A stretch of DNA of 61,476 nt from a virus: IMG/VR virus record IMGVR_UViG_3300035670_000213, positions 1 through 61,476 of that record; one strand, given 5' to 3'. Made by a program: the position numbers and the translations under genes. The notes under the pieces are model-generated. The model searched no databases. It was not told where the DNA came from and worked only from the letters and a program-made list of their open reading frames with translations. Shown one piece after another: positions 26,636-56,267 of the stretch. The stretch's first letter is position 1, and each line of letters starts with the position of its first letter.

Positions 26636-28045
26636 TTACTTCTCCAGGTCTACGTTCACTATCTTGTAATTGAAGTTCTCTTGAACATATATCTTAGCTC
26701 TCTCAAGAAAGTGCTTCATCGAGAAATTGGTTTTGTTCTTGTACTTCAGATCATCAACGATATCAAACAGTATCGCTGGTCCTATCTTATTTATAGACAA
26801 TCTGAGTACTCTACCGATTGATTGAAGTACTCTTATCTTTGATTTGGAAGGATGGGTGAATATGATATTCTGGAGTGACGGAATATTAATACCAGTAGAA
26901 AATATCTGAGAAGAAGCCACGATAATTCCATTATCAATAGAGTTTATTTTGATTCTTATATCTTCACGAATATCTACATCAGTTCCGCCATAGATGAAAT
27001 AAACTGGTCTATCTGTATATTTCTGTATGAGATTGTATAGTATTTCGCCGTGAGTTTCTACTCTTGAGAACAGAACCAAGGTATTTCCTTTGGCACTCGC
27101 AGCTAATTTGGCTATGAATTTGTTTCTTTTATCATTAGAAATCAAAAACTTTACTTCATCTTCGTAGGTGAAATCTTTCGCCGCTTTTCTGGAAGCGTCG
27201 GAATATGAAAGAACTAGTACATTAATCTTGAAGTCAGATAACTGAGATTTGCTGATTAGATCGGCAGTTGTTGTGAATTGTTTCGCCTTACCGAATATTC
27301 CTTCTAGTTGTAATTGATGAATCTTTTCACCAGAAAGAGTTCCGGTGAATCCGTGCCTGAATCTCGCATTAACGCATTTATCGAATAATTTAGATACTTC
27401 TTTGGCAGAATACAAATGACATTCATCACCAATAATTGTTTCAACATCTTCGAAGTAACTCAGTGGTTTATCATATAAACTCTGCCAAGTACTTATACGA
27501 ATGCGTTTGTTTTCTCTCTCCATCCCAGAATATATCCTGGTTACTTTAGAAGAATGATCCCAATCGGGAAAATAATCCCCGATATCCGAATACAATTGTT
27601 CTACTAGCGAGGTGGTGGGGCAAATTAGAAGAATATTTCCTTCTGTGTTCTCGTAATAAAACTTAATTAGAGAAGATATTATGAAAGACTTACCGGAATT
27701 ATGATGAGTCAACCCAGATAGAATATACGATTCATGATCCGCATCGACAGTGAAATCGATCCAATCGTTATTGGGTTTTGGTGTTATTTTAGTTACAGTC
27801 TTAGATGAAATTTGATCTCCAATAGAGAATGAATCAATAGTTCTCCATTCTTCATTATCATCCAGAATTAAATGCTTAGTTGACCCGGTTAGAATAGTTC
27901 CATCATTAAATTCTAATTGAATACCTGGGGTGTTCTTTTTATATGCATCTATAACAGATTCCCAACCAGTTTTTGTGAATACTTTCGGTTTTCCGCCAGA
28001 TTTAACTAGGTCGTATAGTTCGTTTAAGGTTATTGTTGTTCTCAT
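26636..28045 (-). CDS. uvsW: UvsW helicase, carboxy part preceded by carboxy half of a split intein
   Basis: 469 residues from ATG 28045 (GAGA before it). Residues 1-116 are intein: block B TILTGSTKHLIL near 50-61, then VDADHESYILSGLTHHN with the terminal HN (blocks F and G). Residue 117 starts the extein, SGKSFIISSL, the second half of the Walker A loop. It continues with IIGDECHLY (DExx), FTGTL and QSIGRVLR (motif VI) of an SF2 helicase. After splicing to the 29204-29710 product the enzyme has about 489 residues (T4 UvsW 503). UvsW unwinds R-loops and branched DNA. Confidence 0.93.
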   Translation of the reverse strand: MRTTITLNELYDLVKSGGKPKVFTKTGWESVIDAYKKNTPGIQLEFNDGTILTGSTKHLILDDNEEWRTIDSFSIGDQISSKTVTKITPKPNNDWIDFTVDADHESYILSGLTHHNSGKSFIISSLIKFYYENTEGNILLICPTTSLVEQLYSDIGDYFPDWDHSSKVTRIYSGMERENKRIRISTWQSLYDKPLSYFEDVETIIGDECHLYSAKEVSKLFDKCVNARFRHGFTGTLSGEKIHQLQLEGIFGKAKQFTTTADLISKSQLSDFKINVLVLSYSDASRKAAKDFTYEDEVKFLISNDKRNKFIAKLAASAKGNTLVLFSRVETHGEILYNLIQKYTDRPVYFIYGGTDVDIREDIRIKINSIDNGIIVASSQIFSTGINIPSLQNIIFTHPSKSKIRVLQSIGRVLRLSINKIGPAILFDIVDDLKYKNKTNFSMKHFLERAKIYVQENFNYKIVNVDLEK

Positions 28046-28066
28046 AATTCTCAAAAATTCAATTTT

Positions 28067-28074
28067 TATAAATA
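28067..28074 (+). promoter_or_regulatory. T4 late promoter TATAAATA for the uvsW-gap endonuclease
   Basis: Perfect consensus on plus, 88 bases before the endonuclease ATG. It faces a minus-strand TATAAATA at 28144-28151. Confidence 0.7.
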
Positions 28075-28110
28075 ATTAATGCGGTTAGATTATTGTAGCG
28101 CAATAATCAA

Positions 28111-28164
28111 CAATAGGATAGTATATTGCTGTCCCGCAAATAATATTTATAGGATAGTATAATG
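28111..28164. repeat. 13-bp direct repeat in the uvsW gap
   Basis: ATAGGATAGTATA occurs twice, near 28113 and 28150, in the short space between uvsW C-half and the endonuclease start. It may be a regulator site or a scar of endonuclease insertion. Confidence 0.55.
28144..28151 (-). promoter_or_regulatory. T4 late promoter TATAAATA for the uvsW C-half
   Basis: Perfect consensus on minus, about 100 bases before ATG 28045. It gives the C-half its own late transcript although it is cut off from the N-half by the antisense endonuclease gene. Confidence 0.7.
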
Positions 28165-29223
28165 TTTAAACAACAATATTTAGAAAAGTTGAAAACACAT
28201 TTTAATGATGATGTAATACAACACTTATCACAAAAAGACACTAAGTTCATTAGATCGTTAATAGGGTTTAAAGATAACCTTAAAAATAATTGTGGATATG
28301 AATATGACACTAAGTCGATGAATATAGATTTAATCGAAGCCATTAAACATGATTTTAAGATATATAAAGATTCATTGATTGCCAACAATAAGAATGAAAA
28401 AATAATAACTGAAGAAAGATTTATTGTTTTTCTCAGAGATAAGATACTTGCAAAAGAACTTTATATTAAGTTTTGTATTAAGAAAACAAATAAAATGCGT
28501 GAAGTTGTAACAGAAAATCCACTATTATGTGATACTTCTCTGAATGGTTTTATCGCAAGAAATGGGGTTGAAATTGGAACAGAGAAATACTACACACACC
28601 TCAAGAATAAAAGAGAATCTAGTTTGAGGAGAATTTCTGGATGGATGAAGAAAGGTTATAGTGAAGAAGAATCTAAGATAATGCTTTCTAAACACCAAAC
28701 AACATTTTCTTTGGATTTATGTATTAAAAAATATGGATATGAAGTTGGTGTTCGAGTATGGAAAGAGCGACAAGATAGATGGCAAGCCACACTCAATAGC
28801 AAAAGTCCTGAAGAAATTGATGCTATTACCAGATCAAAAGTAACCAATCGACCTGGAGGTCCATCGTCAAAACCAGAAAAAGAATTATATGACATATTAT
28901 GTAGATCGTTTATAAATTTGGAACAACAATTCGTTCTTAGAAAAGGTAAAACTAGATTTGTATATGATTTTAGGTTTAACAATAAGTTAATAGAATTTAA
29001 TGGAACATACTGGCATTGTGATCCTAGAAAATACGAACCAGATTTTTTTAGAAAAGATTGCAAACTTTATGCTAAAGAGATTTGGGAAAAGGATAAAAAC
29101 AAAACAAATTTAGCCAAGGAAAATGGATTTGATGTTCTTGTTGTTTGGGAACTGGATTTCAAACAAAACAAAGAAGAGGTTATTAAGCAATGTATCAATT
29201 TCTTCAAGTGTCCCAAGGATTAG
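28162..29223 (+). CDS. free-standing VSR-like homing endonuclease in split uvsW
   Basis: 353 residues, opposite in orientation to uvsW. Residues about 110-235 hold repeats of the form L-x-x-C/F-I-x-x-Y/N-G-x-E-x-G (SLDLCIKKYGYEVGVRVWKE). The carboxy part GPSSKPEKELYDIL, then RFVYDFRFNNKLIEFNGTYWH and VLVVWELDF (in parts) is the VSR-like PD-(D/E)xK core common to endonucleases found between split-intein halves. Its last 20 bases overlap the 3' end of the uvsW N-half gene in convergent orientation. Confidence 0.9.
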   Translation: MFKQQYLEKLKTHFNDDVIQHLSQKDTKFIRSLIGFKDNLKNNCGYEYDTKSMNIDLIEAIKHDFKIYKDSLIANNKNEKIITEERFIVFLRDKILAKELYIKFCIKKTNKMREVVTENPLLCDTSLNGFIARNGVEIGTEKYYTHLKNKRESSLRRISGWMKKGYSEEESKIMLSKHQTTFSLDLCIKKYGYEVGVRVWKERQDRWQATLNSKSPEEIDAITRSKVTNRPGGPSSKPEKELYDILCRSFINLEQQFVLRKGKTRFVYDFRFNNKLIEFNGTYWHCDPRKYEPDFFRKDCKLYAKEIWEKDKNKTNLAKENGFDVLVVWELDFKQNKEEVIKQCINFFKCPKD

Positions 29224-29710
29224 GTTTAGTTCTCAATTTATGAAGTAGCTTAATATCATCTTCAGAAAGTTCAACATCAATTTGGGTGTCTGGGTGCAGA
29301 CACCCTGTGACTGAAACGACAATAGATCTTTTGCTACAGATACAATTCTTTAACCCATCAATCTGATAATCTCTGGCTTTAATCTCTACCCCACCAGAAA
29401 ATACTTTATTGGTTTCTAAGAATTTATCGGCCTGATCTTCAGAGAATCCTTTGTTATCGAAATCTTGATCGAAGTCGTAATCATTATCTTTCGCATATGA
29501 TTTGATGTAATGTGCAAGACCCTTACCGATTGTATTCGTTCTCTTATTGAGTAATCTTGCATACCCATCCCAAAGTTTCTTTTTGTAGATAGGCATATAT
29601 TTTGCACCAGGAACTTCGAAACTCAAGAGTTCATATAACTCTTGAATAATTCCTGGTTCGGCTTCTACAACGCAATGCGTTTCGTTTAATGATCTTAGGT
29701 ATATTTTCAT
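29204..29710 (-). CDS. uvsW: UvsW helicase, amino part followed by amino half of a split intein
   Basis: 168 residues. The first 136 match the UvsW start (MKIYLRSLNETHCVVEAEPG, GAKYMPIYKKKLWDG, ARDYQIDGL), ending in SIVVSVTG, the first half of Walker A. Residue 137 is Cys, the intein residue 1 (CLHPDTQIDVELSED), and only 32 intein residues follow before the stop: block A only. Cys1 and the C-half HN|S complete a class 1 intein. The short N-intein is the atypical split type. A perfect late promoter and a 6-bp hairpin precede ATG. Confidence 0.93.
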   Translation of the reverse strand: MKIYLRSLNETHCVVEAEPGIIQELYELLSFEVPGAKYMPIYKKKLWDGYARLLNKRTNTIGKGLAHYIKSYAKDNDYDFDQDFDNKGFSEDQADKFLETNKVFSGGVEIKARDYQIDGLKNCICSKRSIVVSVTGCLHPDTQIDVELSEDDIKLLHKLRTKPNPWDT

Positions 29711-29729
29711 GACAGGTATTTCACTGTCA
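29710..29729 (-). promoter_or_regulatory. hairpin overlapping the uvsW start codon
   Basis: TGACAG and CTGTCA form a six-pair stem with an eight-base loop; the stem includes the first base of the ATG. It would be the extreme 5' end of the late uvsW transcript and may limit translation. Confidence 0.5.
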
Positions 29730-29730
29730 G

Positions 29731-29738
29731 TATTTATA
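29731..29738 (-). promoter_or_regulatory. T4 late promoter TATAAATA before uvsW
   Basis: Perfect consensus on minus, 20 bases before ATG 29710; T4 uvsW is also late. Confidence 0.8.
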
Positions 29739-29739
29739 T

Positions 29740-30162
29740 CTATCTTTTCTTGTAGCCTTCTTTACTACCGAAAACCCTAACGGCATAGTACATCATTCTT
29801 CTTATCGGATAAGATACTCCAAGAACACCCATTGCCTCAAGAAAAATAAGATCTGATTCTTTCTTCGAGAATAATCTAACTTCACCATTAATAACAATCT
29901 CACCTTTATTTGCAGTCAGATAATCATGAACAACGGCTGCTTTGGTGTACTTACCTGTAGGTGGAAATACGCTCCACATGATTTTGGGTATTGTGGCGAA
30001 ATCGGTTTGAAATCCGGCAGGAACTTCAATAAATTCTTCTGAGTCTAAAGAACCTATGTAATAAACAAAAGTCTCTTGTATCTCCCAGATAGCTCTCTTA
30101 TCTTGTTCACCTACATATTTAACTACGAGTGGTTTTGTGAATGGTTTCGTAAAGTCGCTCAT
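29740..30162 (-). CDS. DUF1353 family protein
   Basis: 140 residues. VPAGFQTDFATIPKIMWSVFPP and then KAAVVHDYL are the defining DUF1353 blocks (PF07087), a family of small phage proteins of unknown function. It overlaps the upstream gene by four bases. Confidence 0.82.
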   Translation of the reverse strand: MSDFTKPFTKPLVVKYVGEQDKRAIWEIQETFVYYIGSLDSEEFIEVPAGFQTDFATIPKIMWSVFPPTGKYTKAAVVHDYLTANKGEIVINGEVRLFSKKESDLIFLEAMGVLGVSYPIRRMMYYAVRVFGSKEGYKKR

Positions 30163-31175
30163 TTGTTGTTTAGTAATTCTTTGTATGTGATATTAGACCA
30201 GTAATCTTTTTCTATTGTTGGTTCGCCTTTAGGAAATCGTCCTTTTAATATTTCAGTCGCATACAAAAGTGAATACTGGACATCTTTTGCTATAGCATCT
30301 TCACCTTTAGGGAACGGTCCCCCAATAACATCTCTTGCATAGTAATACGAATATTCGGTACTTTTACTTATAATACCTTCGGCTTCTGGCCAGCGACCAC
30401 GAATTACATTCTTGGCATACTCATAAATCCATTCGAGATTACGGGAAACTATAAGCTCCTTTTCAATCTGAGAATCTCTTTCGCCCCTTTTGATAACATC
30501 TGCGAATCGACTTCTTAGTGAAATTTTGGAGAATTCTTTTCTTTCAGCTTCTACTTCTGAATCGTGTGCATTATCGGCAATTTCTTCGACATCTAAACCA
30601 GTTTTTTCTTCGAAAACTTCCTTTGTTAATGGCTTATTCTTATTATCAAAAAACTCGTATAAATATGAATAACTGTAATAATTAATTTTCTTTATTTTAA
30701 GAGCAATAGCCCATTTTTCTCTCTTGTCATTCAAACAGAATATCATTATGATATTCTTATCCAAGAAATAATCTTCATAGTGTTCCTGATTTTGTTTGGA
30801 TACACACCAATCAGTTCCTCTTCCTTCATAACAGGAAGCTTCCTTATTTACCGGAATTATAATTCTCCAACCAGCCGCTTTTTGTTCTGGGGTGGTGATA
30901 TCCAGTACTTTACCTGGATCTTTTGCTTTACCCGATTTAGTTATCTCGGATTCCTTGGAATCTACGAATGACTTAAATTCATCGAAAGATTTTTTACCCC
31001 AAGTATCAATATTCTTTTCTTCGCCAGATATCCTTTGATTCTTACTCAGGGTTTTGAATCTATCGATATATAAGTTAACTTCATCTGGAGTGGCACCAGA
31101 ATCAATAAAGAACTTCGTGACTGTCTTGAAGTCTTCTTCGACTCTTATGATACTCTTGAATGATTGGATTTTCAT
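30159..31175 (-). CDS. phage protein with WCVS domain and FPxGE-type repeats
   Basis: 338 residues. Residues about 110-180 have GRGTDWCVSKQNQEHYEDYF, a domain frequent in large phages and of unknown function. Residues about 245-330 are three repeats of the form Y-A-x-x-V/I-I/L-x-G-R/P-F/W-P-x-G/A-E-x-x-I, ending close to the stop. Weak late-promoter-like ACTAAATA lies seven bases before ATG. Presumably a scaffold or binding protein; no catalysis visible. Confidence 0.6.
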   Translation of the reverse strand: MKIQSFKSIIRVEEDFKTVTKFFIDSGATPDEVNLYIDRFKTLSKNQRISGEEKNIDTWGKKSFDEFKSFVDSKESEITKSGKAKDPGKVLDITTPEQKAAGWRIIIPVNKEASCYEGRGTDWCVSKQNQEHYEDYFLDKNIIMIFCLNDKREKWAIALKIKKINYYSYSYLYEFFDNKNKPLTKEVFEEKTGLDVEEIADNAHDSEVEAERKEFSKISLRSRFADVIKRGERDSQIEKELIVSRNLEWIYEYAKNVIRGRWPEAEGIISKSTEYSYYYARDVIGGPFPKGEDAIAKDVQYSLLYATEILKGRFPKGEPTIEKDYWSNITYKELLNNK

Positions 31176-31192
31176 ATACTACTATTTAGTAA

Positions 31193-31624
31193 TTACCCAA
31201 TCTCCCCAGCATCAAACTTAATCATTGTGATAGCGTTCTTGATTGAGAATTCTCTTTGCTCGATTCCACGAAGGACCTTTTCGAGAAAGAAACATTTCTC
31301 TTTCTGGATATTGATTTTGTCTGTTAGGGTAATGATATCTTCGTCTGCTTCGATATATGTATCTAAATCTTGCTTGAGTATCTTGATATTGAGTGGACGT
31401 TCAAGATAATCTTCATCCGAAGCTTTACCTGAATAATATTCAAACTTATCCTTCTTCATACGAGCGAATTTACTATTAAGGGAATGAAGTGTTATTTTTT
31501 CGTTTCTGTATATCTCAAGATACTTCGCCAAGATTTGCGGAGTTCTTGTTGCTTCATCTACGAGATTGTATCTATCAATCTTCAAATCAACTTCAACTAG
31601 TTTGTATATATCTTCGAATTTCAC
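31193..31624 (-). CDS. uvsY: recombination mediator UvsY
   Basis: 143 residues (T4 137). FEYYSGKASDEDYLERPLNIKILKQDLDTYIEAD (in parts YYSGKASDED and ILKQDLDTYI) corresponds to the central UvsY region, and GIEQREFSIKNAITMIKFDAG to its end. UvsY loads UvsX onto gp32-covered DNA. It follows a RecB-like nuclease gene with a four-base overlap. Confidence 0.88.
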   Translation of the reverse strand: MKFEDIYKLVEVDLKIDRYNLVDEATRTPQILAKYLEIYRNEKITLHSLNSKFARMKKDKFEYYSGKASDEDYLERPLNIKILKQDLDTYIEADEDIITLTDKINIQKEKCFFLEKVLRGIEQREFSIKNAITMIKFDAGEIG

Positions 31625-32313
31625 GATAACTCCAATTTTGGTAGATGCTCTTTCAGAATATCTGCAAATGCTTTGTAATGTTTGGTACGTTGTGTCTTGA
31701 ATAACAATGGATTGGAATCATATGTTGACATGATAATAACAATGTTCTTGATTTTTATTCCGGTCATTTCTTCGAGCATTAACGAATATGCCGTACCTTG
31801 TACGAAATAATTCTCGATGTTTTCTTCTTTCTTTTCGTTCCTAGAAGTCTTGAAATCTATGATAGATAATTCGCCCTCGTACTCTCCGATACAATCGGTT
31901 CTACCAGCAACTCTTAACACATCGGAATATAATCCGGCTTCTTGGATTAAGATGTTATCTATTTTATTCAAGTAAGGTTCTATCGCATAGAACATATACT
32001 TAGCATGAGTTGTTGACTTAGATAGAAAATCCGGTTCATTATTCAAGTATCTCTCGACTACTTCATGTAGATTTGTTCCTACATCGCAAGCATATTTAGA
32101 AATAACTTCGGCTTCTTCGCCTAATGAAGCCTTCCATCTGTCTAGTGCGGGCTTAGAAACACAACCCAGGAGAGTTGTGATTGAAGGATATTTGTTTTCT
32201 TGTGGAGTTATATAATATCTTCTACCATTAATTTCCTGGGTTGTTATTTCCGGTAATTCGATTGGGTTATGTTTGAATGTCTTCACTTTCGTTTTCAACG
32301 GCTTCCTTAGCAA
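31621..32313 (-). CDS. PD-(D/E)xK exonuclease (RecB/Cas4-like)
   Basis: 230 residues. GTNLHEVVERYL (helix with H), GRTDCIGEYEGELSIIDFKTS with D...D-x-K, and FVQGTAYSLMLEEMTG with Q-x-x-x-Y form a full RecB-family nuclease core (order H, D, DxK, QxxxY). Similar genes lie beside uvsY and phoH in aquatic T4-like phages. The start overlaps phoH by 47 bases; a shorter start is possible but no internal ATG exists before the core. Confidence 0.85.
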   Translation of the reverse strand: MLRKPLKTKVKTFKHNPIELPEITTQEINGRRYYITPQENKYPSITTLLGCVSKPALDRWKASLGEEAEVISKYACDVGTNLHEVVERYLNNEPDFLSKSTTHAKYMFYAIEPYLNKIDNILIQEAGLYSDVLRVAGRTDCIGEYEGELSIIDFKTSRNEKKEENIENYFVQGTAYSLMLEEMTGIKIKNIVIIMSTYDSNPLLFKTQRTKHYKAFADILKEHLPKLELS

Positions 32314-33019
32314 TAATATATGACTTAATCAAGGCGCTTCTTACAATATCATCTATACCAAATTCAATGATATCAAACTCGTCCATCTTCTCGATAATCT
32401 TGAGGAATTTCGGCAAACCAGAAACATCATATCGACTCTTTGTTAAATCGTTCTGTTTCCAGTCACCACAATAAATCACCCTGGAATTTTTACCAATTCT
32501 CGTTGCGGTCGTATCTATCTCAGCGAATGACAGATTCTGAGTTTCATCGACGATAATATAAGTGTTATTGATAGTGGTGCCACGTAGATATGATGTGGAA
32601 CAAAACTCAACAACTCCCTTAGTTTTTAGTATCTCAAATGCATCTCCTCGCCCGAATAACTCGGCAAAGATTCCTTTATATGGATCTTCGTATACAGACA
32701 TCTTTTCTTTTAGTGTTCCTGGAAGGAAACCGATATCTCTAGAAGAAACAGTCGATCTAATTATCATTATCTTAGAAGGACCTTTAGAATCTGTTCTATT
32801 GAGCATATCACGAAGACACAGATAAAGAGATAAGAATGTTTTACCTGTCCCTGCTGTCCCACATAGTAGAAGATTGTAACCTTCTTCGAATGCATCAAAC
32901 ACATCGGCTTGTGCATCGGTAAGTGGTTGAATCTTCTTCAATGAAAACGATGAATCTATCGTTGGCTCTAAAGCAGACTTCTTAGTAGTCGTTCTTTGTT
33001 TTCTTGGTTTGATTGGCAT
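32267..33019 (-). CDS. phoH: PhoH-like ATPase
   Basis: 250 residues. Walker A GTAGTGKT at 54-61, SYLRGTTINNTYIIVDETQN with Walker B at about 160-180, and GDWKQNDL near 195-202 are the PhoH blocks. PhoH-like proteins are predicted RNA-associated ATPases widespread in marine and freshwater phages; the role in infection is unsettled. AAGGA before ATG. Confidence 0.93.
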   Translation of the reverse strand: MPIKPRKQRTTTKKSALEPTIDSSFSLKKIQPLTDAQADVFDAFEEGYNLLLCGTAGTGKTFLSLYLCLRDMLNRTDSKGPSKIMIIRSTVSSRDIGFLPGTLKEKMSVYEDPYKGIFAELFGRGDAFEILKTKGVVEFCSTSYLRGTTINNTYIIVDETQNLSFAEIDTTATRIGKNSRVIYCGDWKQNDLTKSRYDVSGLPKFLKIIEKMDEFDIIEFGIDDIVRSALIKSYIIAKEAVENESEDIQT

Positions 33020-33060
33020 TATTTTCCTTTTTCATGACAAAATAATCCACTCGTTGTAAA

Positions 33061-33336
33061 TTATATCTCTCTTGGAATCGTACTATTTCGTTCGACATTA
33101 CCTAACTTGTGATCGTTCTTGATTCTTCCGAGAACATATTTCTGAAAGTCTGCTGGTGGTCGCTTAACACCCAGTCTTACAGGATCGCATATAGCAGGAG
33201 CACAGATAGATTTCTTGACTTCCGATTTAGAACAATTCGGGCATGGTTCGGTAGTAGGAAGATCACAATCAACAATCTTTAACATTTTTTCAAATGAATG
33301 GTCACACGATACACAATGAAAATCATATAATGGCAT
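33061..33336 (-). CDS. FmdB-type zinc ribbon protein
   Basis: 91 residues. MPLYDFHCVSCDHSFEKM and CPNCSKSEVKKS form the CxxC...CxxC zinc ribbon of the FmdB family; a basic tail follows. GAGGA precedes ATG and ACTAAATA, a weak late-promoter match, lies at 33354-33361. Probable small nucleic-acid-binding regulator. Confidence 0.82.
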   Translation of the reverse strand: MPLYDFHCVSCDHSFEKMLKIVDCDLPTTEPCPNCSKSEVKKSICAPAICDPVRLGVKRPPADFQKYVLGRIKNDHKLGNVERNSTIPREI

Positions 33337-33361
33337 TTTCTATTCCTCGTGTATATTTAGT

Positions 33362-33396
33362 AAAAAAATAGGCTGGAGGGATCACCCACCAGCCTT
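33362..33396 (-). terminator. rho-independent terminator after cobS
   Basis: AGGCTGG (33370-33376) pairs with CCAGCCT (33389-33395); on minus the stem is followed by ATTTTTTT. Confidence 0.88.
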
Positions 33397-33420
33397 TAGT
33401 TGTTACTTCAAGGAGAAAAA

Positions 33421-34545: not shown

Positions 34546-34563
34546 ATTTCTCCTACTTGGACT

Positions 34564-34592
34564 AGTATATCATATTGGATGTGGGGTGTCAA
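34564..34592 (-). promoter_or_regulatory. sigma70-like promoter TTGACA-N17-TATACT before cobS
   Basis: Consensus hexamers; leader of about 15 bases with AGGAG before ATG 34545, so this one is not leaderless. Confidence 0.85.
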
Positions 34593-34614
34593 ATAAATCA
34601 AAAAATATTTTTTC

Positions 34615-34643
34615 TTGACACCGATCAACCCATATGCTATAAT
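34615..34643 (+). promoter_or_regulatory. sigma70-like promoter TTGACA-N17-TATAAT before cobT
   Basis: Perfect consensus, six bases before ATG 34650. It is divergent from the cobS promoter with about 22 bases between the -35 elements. Confidence 0.88.
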
Positions 34644-34649
34644 TGATTC

Positions 34650-36902: not shown

Positions 36903-36910
36903 GAGAATTC

Positions 36911-37114: not shown

Positions 37115-37125
37115 GAGTAAATACT

Positions 37126-37336: not shown

Positions 37337-37351
37337 AGTCTTGGAGGTATT

Positions 37352-37835: not shown

Positions 37836-37855
37836 AGTGTACGATAGGAGTAATT

Positions 37856-45051: not shown

Positions 45052-45070
45052 ATCGAAAGGTATTATATAG

Positions 45071-46150: not shown

Positions 46151-46151
46151 T

Positions 46152-47518: not shown

Positions 47519-47540
47519 CTTACTAAGTATGTTGTATAAT
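47511..47540 (+). promoter_or_regulatory. sigma70-like promoter TTGACT-N18-TATAAT before gene 43
   Basis: One-base-off -35, 18-base spacer, perfect -10, then five bases to ATG 47546. The -35 overlaps the previous stop. Confidence 0.75.
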
Positions 47541-47545
47541 AGATT

Positions 47546-49648
47546 ATGGATAAAATTTATACTAATATACAGTCTTGGGGTAACACCCTATATATACGAT
47601 ATCTAGATGGTGGAAAAAGAGGTCAAGAAAAAGTTACTGATTTTCATCCCAGAGTTTGGATTCCTCTCTCGGATAAGAATAAACAAACTAGTACATTCAC
47701 TACTATTTCCGGATATCCTGTTGTAGAATTCGATGCCGGGAATATTACGGACACGAGAGAATTTATCAAAAGAAATCGTGATGTTGATAACTTCTCTGTA
47801 TATGGAAACATACAACCAGAATACCAATGGATTTCTCGGAATTGTGAAGGAACAATTGACTGGAAGATTGGTGATCTTGTTATTGCTTATATCGATATTG
47901 AAACTACATGTGAGAATGGATTCCCTGATATTACAGTGGCCAACGAAGAAGTTAATGCCATTACAATTGGTTTTTCTAACTTAGAAAAAAAGATTATCTT
48001 GGGTTGTGGGGAATACAATAAGACCTTACCTGGGAGTGTTTATGTGAAATGTTCTTCCGAAGAGAATCTACTCGAAGAATTTATTAAGATCTGGAAGTCG
48101 AATTATCCTGATATTGTTTCGGGCTGGAATGTTAAATTCTTCGACATTCCTTATCTCGTGAATAGAATCAATAGGTTATTCGGCGAGAATAAAGTGAAGG
48201 CACTTTCTCCCTGGAAAATAGTGAGAGAAAAGACGGTTGAAATTATGGGTAAGACGCAAATGACTCATGATTTATTCGGGATATCGATTTTGGATTATCT
48301 TGATCTGTATAAGAAGTTCACTTATTCGAATCAGGAATCATATAAGTTAGATCATATTGCATCGGTTGAGCTAGGCGAAAAGAAGTTAGATTATTCTGAA
48401 TATGGATCGCTACATCTTCTATATAAGATGGATTGGGAAAAATTCATCGAATATAACGCAAAGGACGTTAATCTTGTTGTTGCACTCGAAGCGAAGATGA
48501 AATTAATCGAATTGGCTGTTACAATGGCATATGATGCCAAAGTTAACTTCGCAGACGTTTTCTCTCAAGGTAGAATGTGGGATGTGATTATATATAATCA
48601 TCTTCTTTCTAAGAATATAGTTATTCCTGACAAACAAGATCATATGCAGGAATCTATTGAGGGGGCTTATGTCAAAGATCCTAAGCCTGGATTCTACGAA
48701 TGGGTTGTTTCATTTGATTTAACTTCGTTATATCCTCATCTAATCATGGGTGGTAATTTTTCACCGGATACCATCGTAGATAAAGTCGTGAATGTGAGAA
48801 TTGATGATCTTGTGAATAAAACTACCGATCTCTCTAAGTTGAAGGAATTCGATTTATCGATGTCTGCTACTGGTCAGTTATTCAGAAAAGATAAAAAAGG
48901 CTTCTTGAATGAATTGATGGAATGGATGTTCGCACAACGTAAAGAATACAAGAAAAAGATGATTGACTCGCAGACACAATTAGAAGAAGCGAAGAAGAAG
49001 GGACTGCCGACAAAAGAAATCGAGAACGATATATCGAAGTACAAGAATCTTCAGATGGCCAAGAAAATCGCCTTGAATTCTGCATATGGCTCAATTGCAA
49101 ATCGTTATTTCCGATACTATGACAAAAGAATTGCCGAGTCAATTACTGTATCTGGACAATTAAGTATCCGGTGGATTGCCCGAAAGTTAGATGAATACCT
49201 CAATAAGTTATTGAAAACAGATAAAGATTATGTCATAGCAATAGACACTGATAGTGTAGTTGGTGATACTCAAATTTATGTTAATGGTAATAAGACTACA
49301 ATCTCAGATTATTATGAAAGCATTCCAGATAGCAACTTAATTAAGCGAGATATATTGAACGAATCTTTCGTTAAACAAATAGATACGAATGATGTTTCTT
49401 ATGGTTTAGATAGAGATGGCATTTGTGTAAGTAAATCCATCAAATATATTATGAAACATAAAGTCGAAAAGAAGATGTTCAAAATAACTGTTGATGGAAA
49501 ATCTGTTATTGTTACAGAAGATCATTCGGTTATTGTTAAACGAAATGGAGAATATATTTCAATTAAGCCTTCAATGATCTCAATGGATACAGACACCTTA
49601 GTTTTTATAAATACTACTGAGGTATCTAATGTCAAAGAAAATAAATGA
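47546..49648 (+). CDS. 43: DNA polymerase gp43, amino part followed by amino half of a split intein
   Basis: 700 residues: 569 of family B polymerase and 131 of intein. Exonuclease motif YIDIETT near 115-121, motif A SFDLTSLYPHLI near 390, motif B KKIALNSAYGS near 507. Motif C is cut: the extein ends AIDTD (49252) and Ser 570 begins the intein, SVVGDTQIYVNGNK, so residue 1 is Ser instead of Cys. Block B is TEDHSVIV. Spliced to the 50677 product it restores DTDS-VYLN and gives about 838 residues (T4 898). Confidence 0.95.
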   Translation: MDKIYTNIQSWGNTLYIRYLDGGKRGQEKVTDFHPRVWIPLSDKNKQTSTFTTISGYPVVEFDAGNITDTREFIKRNRDVDNFSVYGNIQPEYQWISRNCEGTIDWKIGDLVIAYIDIETTCENGFPDITVANEEVNAITIGFSNLEKKIILGCGEYNKTLPGSVYVKCSSEENLLEEFIKIWKSNYPDIVSGWNVKFFDIPYLVNRINRLFGENKVKALSPWKIVREKTVEIMGKTQMTHDLFGISILDYLDLYKKFTYSNQESYKLDHIASVELGEKKLDYSEYGSLHLLYKMDWEKFIEYNAKDVNLVVALEAKMKLIELAVTMAYDAKVNFADVFSQGRMWDVIIYNHLLSKNIVIPDKQDHMQESIEGAYVKDPKPGFYEWVVSFDLTSLYPHLIMGGNFSPDTIVDKVVNVRIDDLVNKTTDLSKLKEFDLSMSATGQLFRKDKKGFLNELMEWMFAQRKEYKKKMIDSQTQLEEAKKKGLPTKEIENDISKYKNLQMAKKIALNSAYGSIANRYFRYYDKRIAESITVSGQLSIRWIARKLDEYLNKLLKTDKDYVIAIDTDSVVGDTQIYVNGNKTTISDYYESIPDSNLIKRDILNESFVKQIDTNDVSYGLDRDGICVSKSIKYIMKHKVEKKMFKITVDGKSVIVTEDHSVIVKRNGEYISIKPSMISMDTDTLVFINTTEVSNVKENK
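49606..49613 (+). promoter_or_regulatory. T4 late promoter TATAAATA inside the gp43 N-intein
   Basis: Perfect consensus, 15 bases before the endonuclease ATG with GAGGT between; it lies in the coding sequence of the last intein residues. Confidence 0.8.
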
Positions 49649-50696
49649 AGACGATATTAAGCTTAAATTGAATCAAAATTTTGCGATGTCCGATGAAGAT
49701 GCTGCTCGAATTATAGATTTCAGTAAAAATTACTCTGGTAGTCTTAATTCTATTGTAAAACATCTGGATTATTTACATACAAAACCGACTGAATTGTGCC
49801 CAAATCTTGTTGATCGCTATTTAACAATCAAAAGTCTAAAAAAAGGCATAACATTGTATAATTTTAGATTAAAACATGGTGATGAAATCGGTACAAAGAA
49901 GTTTGACGAGTATAGATTAAAACAATCAATAACAAATACATTCGAGTATAAACAACAAAAATATGGTTGGACAAGAGATCAATTTGATGAATACAATAAA
50001 TCACGTGCAGTAACAGAAGAGAATTGTATTAGGAGACATGGGGTAGAAAAGGGGAAGGATATATATAGAAAATATTGTGAAAAACAAAGATATGTTGGGG
50101 TTGCTCTTGATTATTTTATAGACCTCTATGGACAAGAAGAAGGCACAAGAATATATGAATATTGCAATAAAAGTAAAGCACACACATTAGATAATTATAT
50201 AAAGAGATATGGTGATGATGGTGTGGAGAAATTTGAACAATATATATCAAACCACTCGGTTACGGGATACTCCAAGTCTTCACAAGAGTTTTTTGTTGCA
50301 TTATATAATAACTACTACCAAAACAAAACAAATAAAATTTATTTTGCAACCCACAATAAAGAGTTTGGTATTTTAGATACGAAATCCGGAACATACAGAA
50401 AATATGATTTTGTGGACATTGACTCTAAAACTATTATAGAGTATAATGGTGATTATTACCATGCTAATCCTAAAATTTACAGACCCGATGATGTCATTTC
50501 ATTTCATAATGGTATGAAAAAAACAGCAAAGGACATATGGAAAAATGATGAAGAAAAATATGATCTAGCAAGGCAACGTGGTTACCAAGTCATATATGTT
50601 TGGGAATCTGACTGTAATGATGATATGAAAAGTGTAATAGACAGATGTGTGAGATTTTTGGAAGAGGTTAATAATTATGCATGTAAAAGAGAGTAA
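49629..50696 (+). CDS. free-standing VSR-like homing endonuclease in split gene 43
   Basis: 355 residues. About 70-215 consists of repeats such as ENCIRRHGVEKGKDIYRKYC and LDNYIKRYGDDGVEKFEQYI. The nuclease core is YRKYDFVDIDSKTIIEYNGDYYHANP (in parts YDFVDID and IIEYNGDYYH) and VIYVWESD. It overlaps the N-half by 20 bases at its start and the C-half by 20 bases at its end. It probably cuts intein-less gene 43 near motif C. Confidence 0.9.
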   Translation: MSKKINEDDIKLKLNQNFAMSDEDAARIIDFSKNYSGSLNSIVKHLDYLHTKPTELCPNLVDRYLTIKSLKKGITLYNFRLKHGDEIGTKKFDEYRLKQSITNTFEYKQQKYGWTRDQFDEYNKSRAVTEENCIRRHGVEKGKDIYRKYCEKQRYVGVALDYFIDLYGQEEGTRIYEYCNKSKAHTLDNYIKRYGDDGVEKFEQYISNHSVTGYSKSSQEFFVALYNNYYQNKTNKIYFATHNKEFGILDTKSGTYRKYDFVDIDSKTIIEYNGDYYHANPKIYRPDDVISFHNGMKKTAKDIWKNDEEKYDLARQRGYQVIYVWESDCNDDMKSVIDRCVRFLEEVNNYACKRE

Positions 50697-51609
50697 AGAT
50701 TATATTATAGAAGATTTGGGTGTACAAGAAGAATATGTTTACGATATAGAAGTTGAAGATGTGCATAATTTCTTTGCCAATGATATCCTTGTGCATAATT
50801 CGGTGTATCTGAATCTCAATGATCTAGTCAAGACTTTTATCAAGAACAAATCGAAAGAAGAAACCATCAACATCTTAGATAAGATATGCGAAGAACGACT
50901 CGTTCCATTCATCGATAAATCATATGAAGAATTGGCAGATTATATGAATGCTTATTCACAGAAGATGATTATGAAGCGAGAAGTTATTGCAGATCGTGGT
51001 ATCTGGACTGCGAAGAAGAGATATATCTTAAACGTACATGATTCTGAAGGCGTAAGATATACAGAACCAAAGTTAAAGATCATGGGAATCGAAGCCGTTA
51101 AATCTTCCACTCCTGCATTCTGTCGGACGAAGATTAAAGAAGCACTCAAAATCATGATGACTAAGGATGAAGCCGACTTAATCAATTATATCGAAGAAGT
51201 AAAATCTGAGTTCTTCGGACTCAGACCTGAAGATATTGCTTTCCCTAGAGGAGTCAGTACACTTCATTCATATTCTAATTACGATACGATCTATACCAAA
51301 GGAACTCCTATTCACGTCAGAGGATCTTTGTTATACAATAAGATGATTAAGACAAAGGAACTAGACAAGAACTATTCAATAATCAATGAAGGTGATAAGA
51401 TTAAGTTCTTGTATCTAAAAGAACCAAATATCATTCGGGAGAATGTTATATCCTTTCCTTCAATTCTACCTACGGAATTAGGGCTTCATGAATATGTCGA
51501 TTATCAAACTCAATTCGATAAATCATTCATCGAACCACTTTCTATTATCCTGAAGGCGATTGGATGGAATCATGAACGAAGAGCTTCGCTGGATTCGTTC
51601 TTCGACTAA
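50677..51609 (+). CDS. 43: DNA polymerase gp43, carboxy part preceded by carboxy half of a split intein
   Basis: 310 residues: 41 intein and 269 extein. YVYDIEVEDVHNFFANDILVHN (in parts YDIEVEDVHNF and ANDILVHN) is intein blocks F and G, with HN|S at the junction. The extein starts SVYLN, completing motif C, then holds KKRYILNVHDSEG (thumb/KxY region) and the end typical of gp43. GAGG precedes ATG inside the endonuclease gene. Confidence 0.95.
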   Translation: MHVKESKDYIIEDLGVQEEYVYDIEVEDVHNFFANDILVHNSVYLNLNDLVKTFIKNKSKEETINILDKICEERLVPFIDKSYEELADYMNAYSQKMIMKREVIADRGIWTAKKRYILNVHDSEGVRYTEPKLKIMGIEAVKSSTPAFCRTKIKEALKIMMTKDEADLINYIEEVKSEFFGLRPEDIAFPRGVSTLHSYSNYDTIYTKGTPIHVRGSLLYNKMIKTKELDKNYSIINEGDKIKFLYLKEPNIIRENVISFPSILPTELGLHEYVDYQTQFDKSFIEPLSIILKAIGWNHERRASLDSFFD

Positions 51610-51655
51610 GTAAACGATGTGGTAGCTCCACTTATTAAAACAGCAAAGGAAAAAA

Positions 51656-52708
51656 ATGAACAAACTATTAGATAAATTAATGAAAGCCGGGACAATTAAA
51701 TCGGCTGATGTATTGAGTGATACACCATTTTTCAACATGAAGGATTGTGTTCCAACCGAATTGCCTATATTGAATATTGCATTTTCTGGTGATATTGATG
51801 GTGGACTTGTTCCTGGTTTATCAATTATTGCTGGCGAATCGAGATCATACAAGACTCTTCTTTCGCTTTATTGCATGAAGGCTTACTTCAATAAGTATCC
51901 TGATTCAATTGCTTTATTATATGATTCTGAATTTGGTATTACACCAGAATACTTAGAAATGAATGGTATAGATGCATCTAGAATCATTCATATTCCAATC
52001 GAACATATTGAACAACTTAAATTCGATATCGTGAAAAGATTAGAGCAAATTGAACGGGGTGATAAAGTATTCTTCATGATCGATTCGATTGGGTCTCTTC
52101 CATCGAAAAAAGAAATTGATGATGCGTTAGAGGAATCTTCCGCCGCTGATATGACCAGAGCAAAGGCAATCAGATCTCTTCTTCGTATTATTACACCACA
52201 TCTTACAATGAAAGATATTCCTTGTTTGGCCATAAATCACATTTATAAGACAATGGAAAAATTTTCCAAATCCATCATAAGTGGTGGACAATCTGTTATG
52301 TTATGTGCAAATCAAGCTTTCATTGTAACTCGTGCGCAAGAGAAAGATGGAACTGATTTGGTTGGCTATAACTTCACAATCAATATCGAGAAGTCACGAT
52401 TCGTCAAAGAAAAGAGTAAGCTAACTTTTCAAGTTAAATTTGATGAAGGTATTTCTAAGTATTCTGGATTAATGGATCTCGCACTTGAATCTGGACATGT
52501 TATTAAACCAAAACAAGGTTGGTATCAGATTCCTGGTGATGAAAAGAATTATCGATTCGCAAACACAAATACCCCCGAATTCTGGGACAGAATTGTGTCA
52601 GATAATTCTTTCAAAGAATTTATTACATATAAGTTCAAGTTAACTTCAAAGTTACTTGAATTGGAAGAAGATGAACCAACCGAAGAAATGATTGAGGGTG
52701 AAGTATAA
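51656..52708 (+). CDS. uvsX: recombinase UvsX (RecA-like)
   Basis: 350 residues. Walker A GESRSYKT at 60-67, FFMIDSIGSLPS (Walker B) near 143, then the loop region EESSAADMTRAKAIRSL and NHIYKTM. UvsX drives strand exchange and origin-independent replication in T4 with UvsY and gp32. AAAGGAAAA precedes ATG. Its stop overlaps the next ATG. Confidence 0.93.
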   Translation: MNKLLDKLMKAGTIKSADVLSDTPFFNMKDCVPTELPILNIAFSGDIDGGLVPGLSIIAGESRSYKTLLSLYCMKAYFNKYPDSIALLYDSEFGITPEYLEMNGIDASRIIHIPIEHIEQLKFDIVKRLEQIERGDKVFFMIDSIGSLPSKKEIDDALEESSAADMTRAKAIRSLLRIITPHLTMKDIPCLAINHIYKTMEKFSKSIISGGQSVMLCANQAFIVTRAQEKDGTDLVGYNFTINIEKSRFVKEKSKLTFQVKFDEGISKYSGLMDLALESGHVIKPKQGWYQIPGDEKNYRFANTNTPEFWDRIVSDNSFKEFITYKFKLTSKLLELEEDEPTEEMIEGEV

Positions 52709-53091
52709 TGCAATTGAAAAAAAGAAATAAAAAAGTCAAATCGAATGACACTGAGATCGTTCGTCCGACTAGCACCCCTATCCATGTTCCGGATTTGAAG
52801 GCTTCTTTCTTTGTTGCTGACACCGATGATTCGGAGAAGATAATGGTCAGGTTAGATGAGGGTCGATATAAGGGAATTATTATCGAGTTATGTGATTTCG
52901 AGTTTGTGGATGATGCGTCATCCACAATGAATTTCACGTATGATGTTGTTTATTCTCCAACCGGAACTATTCCTAATGATAAGACATTCGAAGTTATAAT
53001 CAAGAAAGTATCTAAAAAGATTATCGAATATGCAGTCAATAAAGCGATGGAAGTCGTAGATACATCAAACTTGACACACATAACAAAGTAA
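52708..53091 (+). CDS. hypothetical protein between uvsX and gene 41
   Basis: 127 residues. Very basic start (KKRNKKVKS), then strand-rich region to about 105 and a helical end. T4 has gp40 here, a membrane-associated protein, but no resemblance or membrane span is seen. A long perfect hairpin lies within the coding sequence. Confidence 0.6.
   Translation: MQLKKRNKKVKSNDTEIVRPTSTPIHVPDLKASFFVADTDDSEKIMVRLDEGRYKGIIIELCDFEFVDDASSTMNFTYDVVYSPTGTIPNDKTFEVIIKKVSKKIIEYAVNKAMEVVDTSNLTHITK
52904..52927 (+). repeat. perfect 10-bp inverted repeat inside the 52708 gene
   Basis: TTGTGGATGA and TCATCCACAA with loop TGCG. No T-run follows. It could be an RNA processing or protein binding site. Confidence 0.7.
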
Positions 53092-53099
53092 GTTATACT
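53071..53099 (+). promoter_or_regulatory. sigma70-like promoter TTGACA-N17-TATACT before gene 41
   Basis: Consensus hexamers. TTATACTAT is repeated 11 bases on, so a second TATACT abuts ATG 53111. No Shine-Dalgarno. Confidence 0.78.
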
Positions 53100-53110
53100 A
53101 TAGTTATACT

Positions 53111-54439
53111 ATGAATATTGAACATGTTATCCTGAAGAACCTCATACACGATGAAGAATATGTAAGATGTACAATCCCGTTCATTAAACCGGAGTATTTT
53201 TCCGATACGAATGACAGGACAATCTTTAAACTTATCTCTAACTTTGTATCAGAATACAATACTAGACCATCAATTGAAGCCATGAAACTCATGGCTTCTG
53301 AGTCTAAGCGAATTACTATTGAGAACTCCGATGAAATTTGTAATTTGTTGGATAGTTGGTCAGAACGAGATGGGTCTAAGTTGGAATTTCTCATTACAGA
53401 AACAGAAAAATTCTGTAAAGAAAAAGCAATCCACAATGCTATATTAGAGTCGATCAAGATTATATCTGACGACAAAGACAAACGTGAGAAAGGTGCGATT
53501 CCTGAAATACTCAAAGATGCCTTGGCTGTTTCGTTTGATCCTAATGTCGGGCATGATCTCCTGGACAATGCCGAAGCCAGATATGATTTTCATCATAAAA
53601 CAGAAGAACGTATTCCTTTTGATATTCAGAATTTAAACCTCATTACATCAGGTGGATTGCCACGTAAAACATTGAACATTATTGTGGGTGGAGTCAATAC
53701 AGGAAAATCACTCGTAATGTGTCATATGGCTGCATCGAATTTGTTGATTAACAAGAATGTTTTGTATATAACATGTGAGATGGCAGAAGAGCGAATCGCC
53801 GAGAGAATTGATGCGAATCTATTGGATATCACAATGGATACCTTGAAGAGCATATCTAAGAAACAATTCTTAAGGTTGGTTGATGGACTCAAAGACAAAA
53901 CAACAGGTAAATTAGTAATCAAAGAATATCCCACATCTACTGCCTCGGCATCGAATTTTCGATTCTTATTACATGAACTAGAGTTAAAGAGAAACTTTAT
54001 TCCGGATATCATTTATATTGATTACATGAATATATGTGCATCATCCAGAATCAAGAACAACGGTAATGCAAACTCATATACATTAGTGAAAGCTATTGCC
54101 GAAGAATTGAGATCATTGGCTGTCGAAATCAATCGACCGATAGTTTCAGCAACACAATTTACGAGATGTCTTTCTACAGAAACTTTGGTCGAAACCCCAG
54201 AAGGAAGTAAGAAAATATCCGAATTATCTATTGGAGATAAGATTTTAGGTACTAATGGATTCGTTGATGTTATTAATGTATACGAGAAAGAAATTACTAA
54301 AGTATATAGAATTACAACTAAATCTGGAAAACAAATTGAATGTTCATCTAAGCATGTCTTTCCAACGAAAAGGGGAATGATTTCCATAAATGCTGGCCTA
54401 ACTGTTGGTGATATATTATTTACTGCTACTCATGAGTAG
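53111..54439 (+). CDS. 41: replicative helicase gp41, amino part followed by amino half of a split intein
   Basis: 442 residues: 352 of DnaB-type helicase and 90 of intein. Walker A VGGVNTGKSLVM near 193-204, IIYIDYMNIC (Walker B) near 298. The extein ends SATQFTR and Cys 353 (54167) begins CLSTETLVETPEGSKKISEL, with block B CSSKHVFP. The intein half closely resembles the N-half of gp41-1, a known fast split intein from phage metagenomes. Spliced length about 467 (T4 475). Confidence 0.95.
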   Translation: MNIEHVILKNLIHDEEYVRCTIPFIKPEYFSDTNDRTIFKLISNFVSEYNTRPSIEAMKLMASESKRITIENSDEICNLLDSWSERDGSKLEFLITETEKFCKEKAIHNAILESIKIISDDKDKREKGAIPEILKDALAVSFDPNVGHDLLDNAEARYDFHHKTEERIPFDIQNLNLITSGGLPRKTLNIIVGGVNTGKSLVMCHMAASNLLINKNVLYITCEMAEERIAERIDANLLDITMDTLKSISKKQFLRLVDGLKDKTTGKLVIKEYPTSTASASNFRFLLHELELKRNFIPDIIYIDYMNICASSRIKNNGNANSYTLVKAIAEELRSLAVEINRPIVSATQFTRCLSTETLVETPEGSKKISELSIGDKILGTNGFVDVINVYEKEITKVYRITTKSGKQIECSSKHVFPTKRGMISINAGLTVGDILFTATHE

Positions 54440-54452
54440 CAGTAAATAAATT

Positions 54453-54460
54453 CATAAATA
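54453..54460 (+). promoter_or_regulatory. late promoter element (CATAAATA) before the gene 41 endonuclease
   Basis: 7 of 8 match, five bases before ATG 54466; the endonuclease transcript would be leaderless. Confidence 0.6.
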
Positions 54461-54465
54461 GATAT

Positions 54466-55809
54466 ATGGATGTAGAAAAAATACTAAAAAAACTAAAAAG
54501 AAAAAAAGATGATTTGACAATATCTCAGTATAACGAAATTGTTATGTTTTCACAATGTATTACAAAAAACAATGATAAAATATCAGATTCGTATATAGTT
54601 AGAACATTATCTAGACAACTAGATTTAAATCTGACTAATTTATATGAAAAATATGTTACATATATAAAAACAATAAAACCTAAGGATTCGACTTCGTTAC
54701 ATTCATTTGTTGTTAGATTTGGTGAGCAGGGTAAAGCAATGTATGATGAGCGCATAAAAAGCTGTCCCCCGAAGCTATCATCATACATAGAGAAATATGG
54801 TGAAGATGAAGGTAAAAAGGCATTCGACCAATATAAAAAGTCTAAATCGATGTCATTAGATAATTGTATAAGAAGATACGGTTTAGAATTAGGTACTATA
54901 AAATATAAAGAATATTGGGAAAATACATCATTTGGAATGAGTAAAGAGAAGTTCAAAAAGAGATTTGGTCTTGAATGGGAAAACGAATATAATAAATTTG
55001 TTGATGCTTGTAAAGGCAGAAAAAATCAATTAATTGAGAAATATGGTGAAATTGTTGGTAACGAAATATGGAATGATATTCAAAATAAAAAAGCATTATC
55101 ATGCAGTAAAGATGTATTTACAACAAAATTGACTGATCAAGGATATTCAATCGAAGAAATTGCTGATTTAGTGAACAACAGATGGAATACATTATCTAAA
55201 GAATCGTTTATAAGAAGATATGGTAATGATGATGGTGTTATAAAATATGACGAGTTCTGTATGAACAATCGAAAAAATAATAGATTATGTAGAGAATATT
55301 ATGACAATATGTCACTTTCTGATGACGAGATAACAAGTAAGATATTAGATGAACAAAAGAGAATGAATTCAAATATCAAAAAAAGCAGCAAAGCAGCATA
55401 TAATTTATTAAGGCCAATAGCAAATAAATTCATTGAAACTGGTTTATGTGATTCATATAATTTGGATGATGAGTTTAGAATTGATTTAAGTAAGTATGAA
55501 AATGAAATTTCAGGTAATCATTTTTACTATTATGATCTAACATTCACTGATTTAAATTTGATTATTGAATATCACGGTAAAATGTATCATGAAGATGTTG
55601 ATTATTTATCAACAACAAATCTTTCATACGAATATTTTGAAAATAATTTTAATAAAGATTTATTTAAGAAATTTGTAGCAGAAAGGCGTGGATTTACGGT
55701 TATTGTAGTCAGAGAATGGCTCTTAAAGACAGATAAATTGGAATTATTCAAATTTATCAAAAACACATATAATATTGAGGAAAATCAATGGGTACATCTA
55801 TTTGTTTAA
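54466..55809 (+). CDS. free-standing VSR-like homing endonuclease in split gene 41
   Basis: 447 residues, the largest of the three. At least six repeats of about 25-40 residues with the core (C/S)-(I/F)-x-(R/K)-(Y/F)-G-x-(E/D)-x-G are present between about 75 and 285 (for example LDNCIRRYGLELGTIKYKEYW). The nuclease core is YYYDLTFTDLNLIIEYHGKMYH (in parts YDLTFTD and IIEYHGKMYH) and TVIVVREW. Its end overlaps the C-half start by 22 bases. Strongly AT-rich compared with the flanking gene 41 halves. Confidence 0.9.
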   Translation: MDVEKILKKLKRKKDDLTISQYNEIVMFSQCITKNNDKISDSYIVRTLSRQLDLNLTNLYEKYVTYIKTIKPKDSTSLHSFVVRFGEQGKAMYDERIKSCPPKLSSYIEKYGEDEGKKAFDQYKKSKSMSLDNCIRRYGLELGTIKYKEYWENTSFGMSKEKFKKRFGLEWENEYNKFVDACKGRKNQLIEKYGEIVGNEIWNDIQNKKALSCSKDVFTTKLTDQGYSIEEIADLVNNRWNTLSKESFIRRYGNDDGVIKYDEFCMNNRKNNRLCREYYDNMSLSDDEITSKILDEQKRMNSNIKKSSKAAYNLLRPIANKFIETGLCDSYNLDDEFRIDLSKYENEISGNHFYYYDLTFTDLNLIIEYHGKMYHEDVDYLSTTNLSYEYFENNFNKDLFKKFVAERRGFTVIVVREWLLKTDKLELFKFIKNTYNIEENQWVHLFV

Positions 55810-56267
55810 TTGAAGATGATATTGTTTCTATCGAAGAGTTGCCGCAAATGTGTGAAACAATTGATATTACTGTTTCTGGTGACAATTTGTTTGTTGCTAA
55901 TGATATTCTCACTCATAACTCTGGGATGTCTAATTCGGATGTCGAAATGACAGATATTTCCGAATCTATTGGTACTGCTCAGACTGCCGATCTCGTTATT
56001 GCCTTAATCAATACCGAAGAACTAGAAAAACTCGGTCAGATCATGATTAAGCAATTGAAGAATAGATATAATGACGTAACAAAAAATAAGAAATTTCTTG
56101 TTGGTATCGATAGATCTAAGATGAGAATATATGATATAGGTAATGTTACGATTGATGGTGAATATGGAATCCAGGATAACGTTCCCGATTACGGAAAGTA
56201 TGATGATTGGAATGATTATTCCGATTCACCCAAACAATCTAGTAAGTTTTCTGATTTCAAATTTTGA
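55788..56267 (+). CDS. 41: replicative helicase gp41, carboxy part preceded by carboxy half of a split intein
   Basis: 159 residues: 44 intein and 115 extein. ETIDITVSGDNLFVANDILTHN (in parts IDITVSGDNLF and ANDILTHN) are blocks F and G, with HN|S. The extein SGMSNSDVEMTDISESIGTA continues the helicase motif 4 region directly from TQFTR, and a gp41-type acidic end follows. GAGGAAA precedes ATG inside the endonuclease gene. Confidence 0.95.
   Translation: MGTSICLIEDDIVSIEELPQMCETIDITVSGDNLFVANDILTHNSGMSNSDVEMTDISESIGTAQTADLVIALINTEELEKLGQIMIKQLKNRYNDVTKNKKFLVGIDRSKMRIYDIGNVTIDGEYGIQDNVPDYGKYDDWNDYSDSPKQSSKFSDFKF

Follow-up and report, generated by a model that had tools for sequence, protein, structure and literature searches.

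The window analysed here is an entire viral record of 61,476 bases (IMG/VR IMGVR_UViG_3300035670_000213), in which the genes for DNA polymerase gp43 (pol), helicase gp41 and UvsW are each fractured, with an endonuclease open reading frame (ORF) sitting between the two halves (Table 1). By gene content the record is a T4-like myovirus; it encodes baseplate, tail-tube and head-closure proteins, UvsX, UvsY, gp32, gp41, gp43, PhoH and a helicase loader. The best annotated matches of its gp41 are Pelagibacter phage HTVC008M and cyanophages, at ~50% identity, and its nearer relatives are uncultured contigs. The paired halves of pol, gp41 and uvsW join without gap or overlap at the intein site when compared with uninterrupted relatives, and a fourth gene, gp32, is interrupted by a group I intron. 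An earlier description made from the letters of the record (the sequence-only reading) had listed three split-intein replication genes and one intron gene, a count that our analysis confirms. It had also described the insertion sites as catalytic, and this too holds: the inteins lie between DTD and S in pol (motif C), between VTG and SGKS in uvsW (Walker A) and between TQFTR and SG in gp41, all conserved catalytic motifs, as is usual for inteins.

Table 1. Fractured genes, the gp32 intron, endonucleases and candidate late-promoter motifs in the window.
Feature	Position	Strand	Basis or remark
Group I intron in gp32	23440..24586	-	Exons 24587-25018 and 22975-23439; between Arg and Tyr
Intron-encoded endonuclease	23518..24492	-	Other family: DUF7487, phrog_15137
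TATAAATA before intron endonuclease	24569..24576	-	Intron positions 11-18; 76 nt to ATG
gp33-type late-transcription coactivator	25992..26264	-	phrog_254, E=6e-18
UvsW C half	26636..28045	-	ResIII, Helicase_C; intein C fragment ahead of it, about 115 residues with HHN at the end, then S
TATAAATA, candidate late promoter of uvsW endonuclease	28067..28074	+	87 nt to ATG
TATAAATA facing uvsW-C, late motif private to this half	28144..28151	-	Intact relatives without motif at this site
EDxHD/Vsr-type endonuclease antisense to uvsW	28162..29223	+	phrog_22677, E=8e-16; alignment of enzymes
UvsW N half	29204..29710	-	Pfam UvsW_N; short intein N fragment CLHPDTQI... after VTG
TATAAATA before uvsW-N	29731..29738	-	Conserved motif match
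gp43 N half	47546..49648	+	Pfam DNA_pol_B, DNA_pol_B_exo1; Ser1 intein N fragment starts SVVGDT after AIDTD
Predicted hairpin in pol read-through RNA	49586..49633	+	5' arm 49586-49602; loop 49603-49615 with motif; 3' arm 49616-49633 covers GAGG and ATG
TATAAATA, candidate late promoter of pol endonuclease	49606..49613	+	Inside polN coding sequence; 15 nt to ATG
EDxHD/Vsr-type homing endonuclease between pol halves	49629..50696	+	phrog_22677, E=1e-68
gp43 C half	50677..51609	+	Intein C fragment ending VHN, then S; start overlaps endonuclease end by 20 nt
gp41 N half	53111..54439	+	Pfam DnaB_C; gp41-type intein N fragment CLSTETLV...
CATAAATA, candidate late promoter of gp41 endonuclease	54453..54460	+	5 nt to ATG; expected start site on ATG
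EDxHD/Vsr-type endonuclease between gp41 halves	54466..55809	+	phrog_22677, E=8e-14; alignment of enzymes
gp41 C half	55788..56267	+	Intein C fragment ending THN, then S

In pol and gp41, the splicing motifs of both intein fragments score above cut-off with TIGR01445 and TIGR01443. The pol intein is of the Ser1 type and, once joined, matches PDB 9hth (E=1e-32), which we take to be the Aes123 PolB1 intein; the joined gp41 intein is homologous to, though divergent in sequence from, the gp41-1 split intein, whose host is the T4-like helicase (PDB 6qaz, E=1e-27). Relatives uninterrupted at the same positions are at hand for each gene: L003/L004 and 38 sites for pol, the gp41 of L001 (TQFTRSG), and the uvsW genes of L148-L159, in which VTGSGKS runs uninterrupted exactly across the joint. 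No profile or structure match was found for the joined uvsW intein; Cys1, HHN and Ser+1 were recognised by eye, and it is from these residues, together with the uninterrupted relatives, that we infer an intein. It is split at an atypical site, after about 32 residues, and no other fractured uvsW was found, the twelve close relatives being uninterrupted there. The gp32 intron is supported by an Rfam Intron_gpI match at 23494-23792 (59.2 bits against a gathering score of 50), by U before the intron and G at its end, and by an exon-exon join matching the intron-less gp32 of L148-L159.

The three intein-associated enzymes constitute one family (phrog_22677). A 12-sequence profile that includes all three has invariant D260, E271, G274, H278 and D307, which we take to be the EDxHD catalytic motif. 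The pol enzyme was structurally modeled (mean predicted local distance difference test, pLDDT, 84), and a Foldseek search with this model ranked Vsr (1cw0) first, with a probability of 1.00 and a weak E value of 0.02; the catalytic domain of I-Bth0305I (3r3p) was matched with a probability of 0.96, a TM score of 0.69 to the target and a similarly weak E value of 0.32. As modeled, the nuclease domain of the pol enzyme is Vsr-like in fold. These enzymes presumably cut DNA, and the inteins presumably splice in trans.

The T4 late-promoter motif, NATAAATA, lies within 100 nt upstream of all four endonuclease genes, the three above and that of the intron. Their ORFs at 24492 (-), 28162 (+), 49629 (+) and 54466 (+), positions listed in the sequence-only reading, are real, and the gaps of 77, 88, 15 and 5 nt that it gave between motif and ATG become 76, 87, 15 and 5 nt; the expected late start falls about 6 nt after the motif. 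Elsewhere in the window, the core ATAAATA precedes baseplate wedge, tail-tube cap, head closure and tail-tube genes, and none was found before polN, uvsX, gp41N, gp32, UvsY or PhoH. A genome-wide count, proposed in the sequence-only reading as a check, gave a divided answer. The totals do not exceed chance (there are 9 copies of TATAAATA where shuffles predict 8.9, and ATAAATA, at 23 against 34.8, is rarer than chance), so counts alone are uninformative; the position of ATAAATA is preferentially before gene starts, as it lies within 100 nt upstream of 12 gene starts for its 23 occurrences, the highest share among 21 same-composition seven-mers. For each endonuclease upstream region the shuffles give ATAAATA a chance of 6-18% (product 1.3e-4). 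On such figures from the window alone, the motifs might be a chance product of AT-rich junction DNA.

This explanation does not withstand comparison with relatives. We gathered loci from an alignment of 16 enzymes, yielding 97 endonuclease clusters at 80% identity, and compared 58 pol loci bearing a homing endonuclease gene (HEG) with 41 HEG-free pol sites. ATAAATA occurs within 60 nt upstream of 45 of the 97 clusters, as against 20 for the next same-composition seven-mer, 9 for its own reverse complement, and 56 of 616 (9%) for the remaining genes of these loci (p=2e-17). Amongst the endonucleases that split pol, 36 of 58 feature the motif where shuffles of the same 60-mers predict 4.7, with a maximum of 18 in 200,000 simulations, and 19 of 35 still do when clustered at 50% identity. 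It is absent from all 38 distinct uninterrupted pol sites and from three HEG-less inteins, those with no free-standing endonuclease (L001, L099, L175). With same-composition controls, shuffles, neighboring genes and HEG-less alleles all far below the observed rate, chance is refuted for the family, and we leave it next to no probability. The counts are, if anything, slightly low, because the automatic choice of start codon scored L081 as lacking the motif; inspection by eye places AATAAATA just before its GTG start.

The motif lies within the N half in one coding phase, over the stop codon in two others, or after the stop, which argues that the DNA motif itself is selected rather than the protein. 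On the endonuclease tree, with L081 counted as present, the trait is unclustered and needs 16 changes. For the pol-type fracture, the candidate promoter extends beyond the window genome and is general among uncultured T4-like phages. Neither a protein search of phage records nor a direct scan found relatives of the gp41 endonuclease; a homolog was found instead via its intein, in L180/L181, with AATAAATA 35 nt upstream of the HEG. A second uncultured phage (L177-L179) apparently has three fractured replication genes, pol, uvsX and gp41; in pol and uvsX, a late motif precedes the endonuclease. Free-standing relatives of these enzymes (L104-L109, L118-L137), some of them between uvsX and a 5' exonuclease gene, show possible small hairpins with TATTTAT before the start codon; the TATTTAT near uvsX in L118-L137 was not counted, as it is the reverse of the late motif.

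A selected motif could also act in RNA, as an AU-rich leader or translation element rather than a promoter. Its location 9-60 nt before the start codon would suit such a role, as would the hairpins found around the ribosome site in some loci. However, the spacing between motif and start is too variable for ribosome binding, and the motif is identical to the -10 element of T4 late promoters, is strand-specific (45 against 9) and also precedes virion genes, a TATAAATA-like element standing before those of the window and before uvsW in ten relatives. We regard an RNA role as very unlikely.

Alternatively, the late promoter might mainly serve the severed C half, restoring its late supply, with the endonuclease merely carried along. 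The polC start overlaps the endonuclease end in most of the 58 relatives and would share its transcript, and uvsW-C in the window has its own TATAAATA. However, the motif is found at the endonuclease start and not at that of polC (1 of 59; polN starts, 0 of 20). Moreover, in L001 (2135-3458) the pol intein is split and the halves overlap directly, with no endonuclease and no motif. The flank of L001 is near-identical to that of L172/L173, whose endonuclease is 60% identical to the pol endonuclease of the window; where these HEG-bearing loci read TTTTTATAAATAATAATTGAGG, including TATAAATA, L001 reads TTTTTATAAAGGATGG, including TATAAAGG. That L001 lacks both endonuclease and motif, though its polC must be expressed, argues that the promoter serves the endonuclease. 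Its pol is likely a gene that stayed split after endonuclease loss, and HEG loss, or earlier absence, goes with absence of the promoter. These comparisons make a promoter meant for the C half unlikely. They also bear out the suggestion of the sequence-only reading that endonuclease expression is under selection, as in relatives the motif marks the endonuclease start and not that of the host gene, and is missing from HEG-less alleles. At L099 (about 3001-5300), a pol intein and a Vsr-like domain share one frame, a contiguous form of the element.

Among the replication and recombination genes, uvsW is the exception. In ten relatives whose uvsW is intact, TATAAATA is kept 12-20 nt before its start, while the flanking sequence differs, which suggests that uvsW itself is probably a late gene in the window phage. 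In T4, too, uvsW is late. The contrast between a late enzyme and an early host therefore fails for uvsW, as does the description of the host genes as early or middle type. The TATAAATA of uvsW-C belongs to a half that the split has severed from the uvsW promoter; neither this motif nor that of uvsW-N figures in the sequence-only reading. Between the C half and the endonuclease (28046-28161), the two TATAAATA elements face each other on opposite strands; the leaders of uvsW-C and the endonuclease would overlap at about 28080-28138 and be complementary over about 58 nt, in structured form.

We propose, with a probability of roughly 80%, that each endonuclease in a fractured replication gene is expressed chiefly from a T4-type late promoter of its own (NATAAATA), located at the junction of half-gene and endonuclease. 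In this mechanism, the N halves of pol and gp41 would be made from early and middle transcription; a late start from the junction motif would then serve the endonuclease, together with the overlapping C half in the case of pol and gp41; and the split inteins would rejoin the host halves by trans-splicing. Pol might feature a further translational layer, in which the read-through RNA would hide the endonuclease ribosome site in a stem with the promoter in its loop, and the late transcript would lack the 5' arm. In the predicted pol hairpin, ACACCUUAGU pairs with ACUGAGGU, covering the ribosome site and leaving TATAAATA in the loop (fold z -1.85). A duplex test for hidden ribosome sites gave p=0.015 for the pol locus of the window, and p=2e-6 across 51 motif-bearing loci versus 0.99 in 27 loci without the motif; the gp41, uvsW and intron enzymes gave no significant result. 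The clearest hairpin is that of L179, a fractured uvsX with another endonuclease type, where a 13-bp stem surrounds the ribosome site and TATAAATA sits at its loop. In seven loci (L083, L232, L240, L242, L244, L248, L250), an imperfect palindrome, ATGnnGATAGGAGTATCnnCAT, lies directly before the HEG ATG, with the ribosome site in its loop, and straddles the expected late start.

Several points weigh against expression from junction promoters. Both the use of the motifs as transcription starts and their late timing are read from sequence. Regarding the machinery for late promoters, a gp33 homolog is present, which favours the proposal; the sigma factor gp55 was not searched for, the record being a fragment. 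The pol and gp41 endonucleases are co-directional with their hosts, and read-through from upstream promoters could reach them; the data support selection on late-type expression, which falls short of late-only expression, and nothing supports coordinated superinfection exclusion, an idea of the sequence-only reading. The gp41 endonuclease transcript would be leaderless, since the motif lies so close to the ATG. The motif is missing from six cultured phages that share the pol arrangement (Aes508, CP21, PTm1, VPALA, KP13-7, SRB7757). Finally, ribosome-site accessibility tested against shuffled upstream arms in 42 cases was not significant (p=0.14; for the pol hairpin of the window, p=0.13), so that the hairpin layer likely applies to a subset only; in such a subset, which includes the pol endonuclease of the window, the hairpin would correspond to the translational control of I-TevI in T4.

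Dassa and colleagues (2009, NAR 37:2560) reportedly described genes fractured by split inteins, together with a new family of endonucleases. The window shares with them hosts split inside the intein (gp41 and polymerase) and a free-standing Vsr-like endonuclease between the halves; it differs in that the endonuclease has its own late motif and in the antisense uvsW insertion, where both uvsW halves have late motifs. Our literature search found no late motifs before split-intein endonucleases, the founding fractured-gene paper being outside that search. The pol arrangement itself is known, because cultured Aeromonas phages carry it with an annotated VSR endonuclease between split halves: PolB of Aes123 and Aes508 (GenBank JN377899, JN377894; intein PMC11923092) is the same gene with the same overlapping order of N half, endonuclease and C half, a Ser-type intein and an endonuclease 41% identical to ours, but has no NATAAATA within 130 nt before it. 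The intron endonucleases of T4, I-TevI, I-TevII and I-TevIII, are GIY-YIG or HNH enzymes encoded in group I introns, with a late or middle promoter just before their gene, within an early or middle gene, and a hairpin that hides the ribosome site in read-through RNA (PMC2988022). The window resembles them in its late motif before the endonuclease and, in pol, in a predicted hairpin there, and differs in that its enzymes are of the EDxHD type between split-intein halves. The principle of late timing is therefore not new, since it is already known for phage homing endonucleases in T4 introns (PMC2988022); what appears to be new is that it extends to split-intein endonucleases. Seven of the free-standing seg and mob endonucleases of T4 are described as promoter-less (PMC2988022); like those of the window, the T4 free-standing genes lie between genes, and segB has a predicted late promoter.

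For T4 intron endonucleases, work on I-TevI (reviewed in PMC2988022) explains late promoters partly by a need to protect intron splicing. Split-intein endonucleases interrupt their hosts at the protein level, which removes RNA splicing as a reason. That a different element would share this timing points to a broader pressure, either to spare early replication proteins or to act once genomes are numerous, co-infecting ones among them. We would put at only slightly better than even the broader proposition that in T4-like phages late expression of split-intein endonucleases is a general rule which has evolved repeatedly, with a junction promoter and often an RNA switch, and which independently matches the control of T4 intron enzymes. 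If so, the two kinds of mobile element would have arrived at this timing by convergence, and endonuclease loss would remove the promoter while the gene stays split. The HEG-bearing and HEG-free pol sites make the question directly testable, with the L001 type showing what remains once the parasite is lost, and NATAAATA at a junction helps to recognise fractured genes during annotation.

Further features of the window concern the spacing of late motifs and the surroundings of endonuclease genes. NATAAATA lies just 5-9 nt before the ATG at 1337-1732, 6006-6971, 6986-7423, 7430-8164, 54466 and 56279, and the lineage has 12 motif-to-ATG gaps of 3-10 nt where controls average 2.6; late-type genes with gaps of 5-9 nt are possibly expressed as leaderless late mRNAs. 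A strong hairpin without a T run (54416-54444, fold z-score -5.3) covers the gp41-N stop codon just before the late motif, and may insulate the gp41 endonuclease from read-through. A fifth endonuclease gene (18837-19481, minus strand; phrog_314) was found in a tRNA cluster, between tRNA-Asn and tRNA-Pro. It lies about 150 nt downstream of CATAAATA (19632-19639, minus strand), just after a possible hairpin, and resembles T4 segB.

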